Shown: piece after piece, positions 48,633 through 51,941 of the stretch
How positions within the stretch are numbered: the first letter of the stretch is position 1
Layout: each line of letters starts with the position of its first letter
Assembly: GCF_000024225.1 (NCBI RefSeq)
Contig: NC_013203.1
Coordinates: 682,001 to 746,000 of the forward strand
Length of the DNA stretch: 64,000 nucleotides
Direction: 5' to 3'
DNA from: Lancefieldella parvula DSM 20469
GTDB lineage: Bacteria; Actinomycetota; Coriobacteriia; Coriobacteriales; Atopobiaceae
Program-made: the position numbers and the translations under genes
Notes under the pieces: model-generated
Seen by the model: the letters and a program-made list of their open reading frames with translations, nothing else
Told to the model about the DNA's origin: nothing
The model's database searches: none

Positions 48633-48658
48633 TGCGTGAACTAAGTTAGTTTACCGCA
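48633..48658 (-). terminator. Weak terminator overlapping the pflA stop
   Basis: AACTAA pairs with TTAGTT and TGCG with CGCA around a short loop in the gap between pflA and trpS; the T content downstream is modest. Confidence 0.35.
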
Positions 48659-49454
48659 TTCCAAGCTTTTTGCGTTCAAGGGTGCGAGCAATAAGGATTT
48701 GTTTGCGCAGCTCTGGAATCTTTTTTGCATCCATAGCAGGAGTATCAGAAAGCTTGTAAGGAATGCCAATCTCTTCATACTTTTTTACGCCCATTACGTG
48801 GTAAGGAAGAACATCTAATCCAATAACATTATCCCAGTGAGCAATAATCCTACCAACACCAGCAAGTTCTTCTGCTGAATCAGTGATACCTGGTACTACA
48901 ACATGTCTGATAAGAACTTTAATACCCCTACGGTTGAGCTCATCGCCAAATGCAAGTGGTCTTTCTGAACCAACTTCACAGAGATTTATGTGTCCCTTTG
49001 GATCAGAGTGCTTGATATCAAGGAGCACCAAATCCGTGTTATCAAGAATGCGCTCAAATTTCTCTGGAGTTTCTGGATTGTATGCAATGCCAGAAGAGTC
49101 AAGACAGGTATGAATACGTCCACGTGGGTCGTTATGAGCTGCTTCAAAAAGAGCTCCAACAAACTCTGGTTGAGCAAGTGGTTCGCCACCAGTAGCCGTA
49201 ATTCCACCGTTTCTATAAAAAGCTCTATTGCGGTTAAAGGTGGCAAGAATTTCTTTTACCGATGTTTCTGTTCCAATACCAAATTGCCATGTATCTGGAT
49301 TATGACAATAGGCACAACGCATTGGACACCCCTGGGTAAATACAACCAGGCGAGTTCCAGGGCCATCTACGGTGCCAAAGGTCTCAATAGAGTGAACCCG
49401 CCCACAAACTGTGAGCGGGTCATTGAGATCCATGTGAGTATCAGAACAAGACAT
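48651..49454 (-). CDS. pflA: Pyruvate formate-lyase activating enzyme
   Basis: Radical SAM enzyme that generates the glycyl radical. The 267-residue protein has the CxxxCxxC cluster motif in FTQGCPMRCAYCHNPDTW near residues 45-62, followed by TATGGEPLAQP and the C-terminal VLPYHVMGVKKYEEI. The ATG at 49454 has AAGGA upstream; a frame open to 49544 extends into the preceding gene. It lies 13 bases downstream of the separate glycyl-radical gene and downstream of pflB, so all three form one transcription unit. Its substrate here is expected to be the small 83-residue protein rather than PflB itself. Confidence 0.95.
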   Translation of the reverse strand: MSCSDTHMDLNDPLTVCGRVHSIETFGTVDGPGTRLVVFTQGCPMRCAYCHNPDTWQFGIGTETSVKEILATFNRNRAFYRNGGITATGGEPLAQPEFVGALFEAAHNDPRGRIHTCLDSSGIAYNPETPEKFERILDNTDLVLLDIKHSDPKGHINLCEVGSERPLAFGDELNRRGIKVLIRHVVVPGITDSAEELAGVGRIIAHWDNVIGLDVLPYHVMGVKKYEEIGIPYKLSDTPAMDAKKIPELRKQILIARTLERKKLGMR

Positions 49455-49467
49455 GGACAAGAAATCC

Positions 49468-49719
49468 TTAGAGAGCGTCGTGGAAGGTACGAGAAATAAC
49501 GTCGTCCTGCTGCTCTTTGGTAAGGGAGTTGAACTTAACAGCATAACCAGAAACGCGAATAGTCAGCTGAGGATACTTCTCTGGGTGTGCTTGAGCATCA
49601 AGAAGAGTGTCCTTAGTAAAAACGTTAACGTTAAGGTGATGACCGCCCTCCTCAGCATAGCCATCAATCATGTTTACAAGGTTATCAATCTGCTCGGAAG
49701 CTACTTCGTTTGACTTCAT
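49468..49719 (-). CDS. grcA: Autonomous glycyl-radical domain of pyruvate formate-lyase
   Basis: An 83-residue protein that is the C-terminal piece of a [22 protein letters not shown], then [20 protein letters not shown], with the radical-bearing Gly58 in RVSGYAV. It matches E. coli PFL from about residue 698 to its end. In E. coli, GrcA is a spare part that repairs a damaged PFL; here the neighbouring PflB lacks this domain, so this protein must complete the enzyme. The ATG at 49719 has AAGGAG upstream. It lies 65 bases after pflB with a hairpin in between, and 13 bases before pflA. Confidence 0.9.
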
Positions 49720-49741
49720 GTGGTTCTCCTTACGAGTTTGT

Positions 49742-49777
49742 TGGCGAGAAGAGACGTGTAGAGAGATCTTCTCGCCA
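49742..49777. repeat. Inverted pair of GGCGAGAA motifs between pflB and glycyl-radical gene
   Basis: TGGCGAGAAGA (49742-49752) and TCTTCTCGCCA (49767-49777) form an 11-bp perfect stem with a 14-base loop. No T run follows on either strand, so it is more likely an RNA stability or processing element, or a partial attenuator, than a full terminator. Its two arms are copies of the window-wide motif. Confidence 0.8.
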
Positions 49778-49784
49778 GGGCTTG

Positions 49785-51941
49785 TTATTTACGATCCTCA
49801 GCACCTTCAGCTGCGGATGGATCTGCCTCACAGGCGCAATCAATCTTGTTCTCAATCTGAATGTCAAGATTCATGTCAGAGAAGTCGATGTGGTCAAGGT
49901 TAAGCTCACTGCCGTGGAAGTAGACATCAGAGCCCTTACCAAGAGCATTAGGAATGATTGAGAAGGTATTGGATATACCGTCCTGTGCGTCGTTGAATGG
50001 AAGCTTAGCAACGGAGGCTAGAGATGCAACCGCGCCATAAGTGTCACGTCGGTGCATTGGGTTAGCACCAGGAGCAAAAGGAACACCAGCGCGACGACCA
50101 TCAGGGGTGTTGCCGGTAGCTTTACCATACACAACGTTAGAGGTAATGGTCAGGATAGAAGTGGTTGGAACGGAATCGCGGTAGGTGTGGTTCTGACGAA
50201 TCATCTTCATGAAGATCTCAACGATGTCATGAGCAATAGTGTCAACGCGGTCATCATCGTTACCGTATTTAGGGAAGTTTCCCTCAATAATGTAATCGGT
50301 GACAAGACCAGTCTCATCGCGGACAACCCTTACCTTTGCGTACTTGATTGCAGAGAGGGAGTCAGCAACAACAGAAAGTCCTGCAATGCCTGTTGCAAAC
50401 CAGCGATGAACGTGCTCATCGTGTAGAGCCATTTGAATGCGCTCGTAGCTGTACTTATCGTGCATGTAGTGGATTGCATTAAGAGCGTTGACGTAAACGC
50501 CTGCAAGCCAGCGCATCATGTCCATATACTTAGAGAAGACATCGTCGTAATCAAGATACTCGCCTTCAACTGCACGATACTTAGGACCAATCTGCTCGCC
50601 GGTCTTCTCGTCACGACCACCATTGATTGCGTAAAGAAGACATTTAGCAAGGTTTGCACGAGCGCCAAAGAACTGCATCTCTTTACCAATGCGCATGGAG
50701 CTGACGCAGCAAGCAATTGCGTAGTCATCGCCATGATAAACGCGCATAAGATCATCGTTCTCATACTGGATGGAGCTGGTGGTAATAGAAATCTTTGCGC
50801 AGTAGCGTTTGAAGCCAACTGGAAGCTTGGTGGACCACAGAACAGTCAGATTAGGCTCTGGGCTGGTACCCATGTTTTCAAGAGTGTGGAGCCAGCGGAA
50901 GCTGGACTTGGTAACCATAGAGCGGCCATCAATGCCAATGCCACCAATGGACTCAGTGACCCACTGAGGGTCTCCGGAGAAGAGCTCGTTGTACTCAGGG
51001 GTACGGGCAAACTTGACCATGCGAAGCTTCATAACCAGGTGATCAACAATCTCCTGAATCTCAGATTCAGTGAAGGTACCACGAGCAAGATCGCGCTCTG
51101 CATAGATGTCCAAGAAGGTGGTGTTGCGACCAATGGACATTGCAGCGCCATTCTGCTCTTTTACAGCGGCAAGATAACCCAGGTAGAGCCACTGAACAGC
51201 CTCTTTGAAGTTCTCAGCAGGACGGCCCAAATCAAAGCCGTAAATCTCACCAAGCTGCTTAAGTTCTTTGAGCGCACGAATCTGCTCAGAGAGCTCTTCG
51301 CGATGACGAATGGTCTTCTCGTCCATGATGGAGCCGGTGCCATTTTTCTGATTTGTCTTGTCTGCAATAAGAGCATCAACGCCGTAAAGTGCAACACGAC
51401 GATAATCGCCGATGATGCGGCCACGGCCATATGCGTCAGGCAGACCAGTGATGATGTGGGAGTGACGGCATTTACGCATTTCCTCGGTATAGACATCAAA
51501 AACGCCAGCGTTGTGAGTCTTGCGACGATAGGTGTAGAAGTTAACAATCTCTGGGTCAACCTCGTATCCATATGCCTTGCAGGCAGCCATTGCCATACGA
51601 ATGCCACCGTCTACCATAAGGGCGCGCTTAAGTGGCTTGTCCGTTTGAAGGCCGACAATCTGCTCAAGTGGCTTCTCAATGTAGCCAGCCTCGTGGGAAG
51701 TGATAGTGGAAACCAGCTTGGTATCCATATCAAGTACGCCACCATTTGCGGTTTCTTGAGCAAAAAGATCCATAACATCCGCCCAAAGCTTTGTAGTAGC
51801 TTCAGTTGGACCAGCGAGGAAGGAATCATCACCATCGTAAGGGGTGTAATTCCTCTGGATGAAGTCTCGGACGTCAATTGCTTTTTGCCAGTTACCACCG
51901 ACAAAGCCGTCCCAAGCCTCCTGTGCTGGTGTTTCCTGCAT
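49785..51941 (-). CDS. pflB: Pyruvate formate-lyase, catalytic part lacking the glycyl-radical domain
   Basis: Cleaves pyruvate with CoA into acetyl-CoA and formate. The 718-residue protein holds the barrel and the two adjacent catalytic cysteines in [10 protein letters not shown] (Cys411-Cys412), and conserved WEGF-type start and [18 protein letters not shown]-like regions. It matches E. coli PFL up to SIIPNALGK. In place of the last about 75 residues with the radical Gly it ends in a unique acidic tail ([16 protein letters not shown]...[13 protein letters not shown]). The ATG follows AAGGAG. The radical domain is encoded next as a separate gene. The stop is not a frameshift within the domain, since that gene has its own ribosome-binding site and a proper N-terminus. 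Confidence 0.95.

Follow-up and report, generated by a model that had tools for sequence, protein, structure and literature searches.

Lancefieldella parvula (formerly Atopobium parvulum) is a mouth bacterium. Its genome is one contig of 1,543,805 bases, and the window, the whole 64,000-nt stretch of DNA analysed here, covers positions 682001-746000 of that contig. Within the window, three ORFs on the minus strand encode the two parts of pyruvate formate-lyase (PFL), a fermentation enzyme, and its activating enzyme. A hairpin is situated between the first two. The features are as follows, in window coordinates:

49785..51941, minus strand: PFL large part, 718 residues, matching TIGR01255 (formate C-acetyltransferase) positions 1-666 of 744
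49742..49777, minus strand (mRNA sense): hairpin formed by an inverted pair of a genome-wide word, with an 11-bp stem and a 14-nt loop
49767..49777, minus strand: 5' arm in the mRNA, TGGCGAGAAGA; TC comes next, and hence this arm matches the extended word TGGCGAGAARnnC
49753..49766, minus strand: 14-nt loop, whose length and sequence vary between Lancefieldella clades
49742..49752, plus strand: 3' arm, the word TGGCGAGAAGA read on the plus strand, lacking the position-12 C of the extended word
49726..49731, minus strand: AAGGAG, the Shine-Dalgarno-like element of the radical part, which the stem does not include
49468..49719, minus strand: PFL glycyl-radical part, 83 residues, matching TIGR01255 positions 664-744 and carrying RVSGYA
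48651..49454, minus strand: PFL-activating enzyme, matching TIGR02493

The sequence-only reading took the large-part and radical-part ORFs to be a split pfl pair, and profile matches bear this out. TIGR01255 is divided between them (positions 1-666 and 664-744), and the 83-residue protein scores 167.4 bits against NCBIfam NF038360 GrcA3, above the cut-off of 158. Beyond its TIGR01255 match, the large part continues into a tail of 40-50 residues with a CAC motif. More generally, the large part of split PFLs closes with a tail that is acidic and contains a cysteine motif (window 49785-49920; L019-L039), the motif being CACEADxSAxEGAEDR in many Atopobiaceae and ACxxPTLFEGLD in many Clostridia. 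A programmed frameshift that would join the two ORFs is ruled out by the large part's own tail and by the small ORF's own start and ribosome-binding site; it is also contradicted by gap lengths of 12 to 270 nt in relatives.

Like YfiD/GrcA, the spare part of PFL (PMC8683613), the radical part is a small protein of its own that supplies PFL's C-terminal glycyl-radical domain. Unlike YfiD/GrcA, it provides the sole radical domain available to the genome's only PFL, and its partner is truncated by gene structure rather than by oxygen cleavage. The single PF02901 match in the source genome (G000) belongs to the split PFL, with no other PFL there; the intact PFL that a GrcA spare part would repair is absent. 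A second PFL-like glycyl-radical enzyme (916-925 residues) is present in the other Lancefieldella genomes G014, G042, G059, and G061 and absent from G000. The arrangement of a truncated PFL followed by a separate radical-domain ORF occurs in about one third of the Atopobiaceae genomes searched and also in many Clostridia. At L064, L073, L101, L108, L124, and about 25 more loci in Ruminococcus, Lachnospiraceae, and Erysipelotrichaceae, the PFL parts have a further small ORF of 70-80 residues between them; it is similar to the beginning of the radical domain, without the RVSGYA sequence.

The gap between the large-part and radical-part ORFs is 65 nt on the minus strand. The activase gene starts 13 nt past the stop of the radical part, and no hairpin was found in that second gap. 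As the earlier reading had it, two copies of the motif face each other in the first gap as a perfect 11-bp stem: the arms (49742-49752 and 49767-49777) are 11 nt each, 100% complementary, and 14 nt apart. The hairpin starts 7 nt past the large-part stop and ends 22 nt ahead of the radical-part ATG, and AAGGAG stays unpaired. Folding of the transcribed (minus) strand gives -19.7 kcal/mol, a value equalled by 1 of 200 dinucleotide shuffles. By itself, however, the strength of the stem is unexceptional for this genome, since 17% of the other same-strand gaps contain stems of at least 9 bp and 9% contain stems of at least 11 bp; conservation is the stronger evidence. No T run follows the stem on the transcribed strand (ACAAACTCGTAAGG; ACAAACTCG), terminator and promoter scans reported nothing in the gap, and Rfam returned no relevant family.

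The word that makes up the arms was counted by pattern searches of the genome, supplemented by a 464-kb sample of stretches. TGGCGAGAAR is present in 336 copies (168 on each strand), compared to 8 (2+6) for its reversed control, so that the motif is indeed repeated genome-wide as first proposed; substitution counts give the core nnnCGAGAARnnC. The sample contains 18 close pairs (no more than 40 nt apart) in the facing (+-) configuration versus about 0.7 expected from density, a ~24-fold excess, while the opposite (-+) configuration occurs once. Across the genome there are 21 close inverted pairs, and the surroundings of 20 were inspected; the intergenic ones are mostly at gene ends, and many are followed by a T run. 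When the word is compared to Chi sites, the relevant features are its even strand split (168/168 overall) and its strong excess of inverted pairs; Chi sites are not known for such an excess.

The word is abundant in several, though not all, Atopobiaceae genera. TGGCGAGAAR itself occurs in g1, g4, g16, and others, with 55 inverted pairs in G016 and 31 in G003, while genus g23 (G047 and G023) has its own iterated form, CCGAGAAACC, at 212-222 copies versus about 25 for the control. These are the habits of a DNA uptake sequence: hundreds of copies on both strands, related but distinct forms in related taxa, and close inverted pairs at gene ends with T runs. A ComEC domain is near-universal, being found in 60 of 61 genomes of the family whether or not the word is present. 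The proteobacterial families Pasteurellaceae and Neisseriaceae are the two for which uptake sequences are described (PMC7811141), and inverted copies are found in terminators there (PMC1852404). The likeness to Neisseria-style terminators that was noted at the outset holds for the pairs elsewhere in this genome. As in the published case (PMC1852404), the word has hundreds of copies on both strands and one preferred pair configuration, many pairs with T runs lie at gene ends, and related genera have different forms. In contrast to that case, the family here is actinobacterial, the uptake role is putative, and the pfl pair is intra-operonic, with no T run behind it. Searches of a limited literature collection found no uptake sequences for Atopobium, Olsenella, or Coriobacteria.

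Conservation of the hairpin was followed in five Lancefieldella species (G000, G014, G042, G059, and G061), which form two clades. The 9-nt arm cores, GGCGAGAAG and CTTCTCGCC, are identical at all 18 positions in all five species, and the hairpin starts 5-7 nt past the stop in each. Between the clades, the loop shrinks from 14-16 nt to 4-7 nt, and identity at fourfold sites of the adjacent pfl part is down to 36-41%, near saturation. If sites are assumed to be independent and neutral, the chance of 18 unchanged arm positions is ~1e-7 to 3e-8. The arms are invariant, with no compensatory changes seen in the five species; because they are invariant rather than compensated, conservation of pairing is not separated from conservation of the word.

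Beyond this genus, the gap varies widely in length and structure in relatives with the same two ORFs. In g23, the pfl gap contains an inverted pair of the genus's own form, CCGAGAAACC, in the configuration opposite to that of Lancefieldella; in G047 this is the only close pair of its configuration. Unrelated hairpins occupy the gap in genera g4 and g11, other hairpins are found in some Olsenella and Collinsella, and roughly half of the split-pfl gaps studied in Atopobiaceae are without a strong stem. A universal hairpin in split-pfl gaps is ruled out, as many genera are without one. Judging from these gene arrangements, the hairpin cannot be essential for split PFL, since several related split-pfl operons have none. 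At some Olsenella and Collinsella loci (L050-L052, L059, and L068), a promoter-like sequence and then a hairpin can be seen by eye in the gap, just ahead of the radical ORF, which suggests separate transcription of the radical part at those loci.

Together, these findings lead us to favor, with moderate confidence, a selected intercistronic mRNA hairpin, derived from an uptake-sequence-like word, that would act by 3'-end protection or processing and so set the amounts of the PFL parts. Two facing copies of the word form the hairpin just past the large-part stop codon, and, with no U run, RNA polymerase would pass through to the radical-domain and activase genes. If the polycistronic RNA is then cut, or decays from downstream, the hairpin would shield the large-subunit message at its 3' end, and it may also cap the downstream message on its 5' side. 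Such shielding would set apart the amounts of the large part, the radical part, and the activase, the most likely direction being more large-part mRNA than radical-part and activase mRNA. From sequence we infer this control of the ratio of the PFL parts, along with transcription as one unit, read-through, RNA cleavage, and the direction and size of the effect.

The closest precedent is the set of selective RNA processing and stabilization stem-loops in the Clostridium cellulolyticum cip-cel operon. Most of the published stem-loops sit at an upstream gene's 3' end, and most have no U run; their energies range from -6.6 to -31.8 kcal/mol (PMC4423207). The pfl hairpin is likewise intercistronic, adjoins the 3' end of its upstream gene, and is without a U run; its folding energy (-19.7) is similar, and in both cases the genes encode subunits of one complex. 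By analogy, RNA processing or stabilization by the pfl hairpin is plausible, and because the upstream message is the protected one in the processing model, more large-part than radical-part and activase RNA would be predicted. The two cases differ in that the pfl stem is built from a genome-wide repeated word, and a processing site and a skewed transcript ratio are predictions for it.

The main rival holds that selection acts on the word itself in the DNA, where it would serve for uptake or as some other DNA-level signal, and that the hairpin arises incidentally and leaves pfl expression unaffected. We regard this as possible, if somewhat doubtful. The word is highly iterated and has no strand bias, and the pfl arms are invariant, without compensation. 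Elsewhere, 16 of 57 copies (28%) are conserved, against a background of 10%, and intergenic sequence is enriched for them ~2.5-fold when genes are approximated by ORFs (27 of 127 copies in ~8.5% of the sequence). However, selection on single copies would not be expected to yield facing pairs ~24-fold over chance and 18 to 1 over the opposite configuration, nor does it account for two facing copies conserved at a near-fixed distance from a stop codon. In addition, g4 has the word in abundance, yet its pfl-gap hairpins are non-motif.

The sequence-only reading had also offered partial termination. As a partial intrinsic terminator or attenuator, the hairpin would stop some polymerases and lower expression of the radical part and activase. 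A GC-rich stem-loop (11 bp, -19.7 kcal/mol) is present, inverted word pairs at gene ends resemble terminators and have T runs, and in Neisserial terminators the stems are long and the tails contain fewer T residues (PMC1852404). Nevertheless, the missing T run, correctly noted for L. parvula, is missing from the four related Lancefieldella species as well (0 of 5), though gene-end pairs in L. parvula often have one. The terminator scan did not report the hairpin, and efficient stopping would take away the radical part needed by the genome's only PFL. Termination is thus disfavored and, in our judgment, unlikely. The consistent absence of T runs at the pfl pair, against their presence at pairs that close transcription units, suggests instead that this pair is kept as a non-terminating hairpin. 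An effect on translation, by which the hairpin would insulate the radical part from ribosomes that are ending translation of the large part, or would position reinitiation, seems more improbable still: a start 7 nt past the stop is within reach of a terminating ribosome, and AAGGAG is left free, but the wide variation of gap length and structure in relatives with the same two ORFs argues against it.

PFL is an oxygen-labile enzyme. With its radical domain made as a separate protein, the amount of that domain could therefore matter for recovery from oxygen. On a broader scale, we tentatively propose, while considering it less than probable, that Atopobiaceae have an uptake-sequence system whose forms are specific to the genus. 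It would be the first that we know of in Actinobacteria, and its inverted pairs would have been co-opted as terminators and, independently in two genera, as an mRNA element that does not terminate transcription and balances the halves of a split glycyl-radical enzyme. An actinobacterial word with the genomic habits of an uptake sequence would make origin and function testable outside Pasteurellaceae and Neisseriaceae, and the pfl site provides a defined place at which an inverted word pair does not look like a terminator. A second inverted word pair without a T run lies between same-strand genes at G000:C1:124656-124679.
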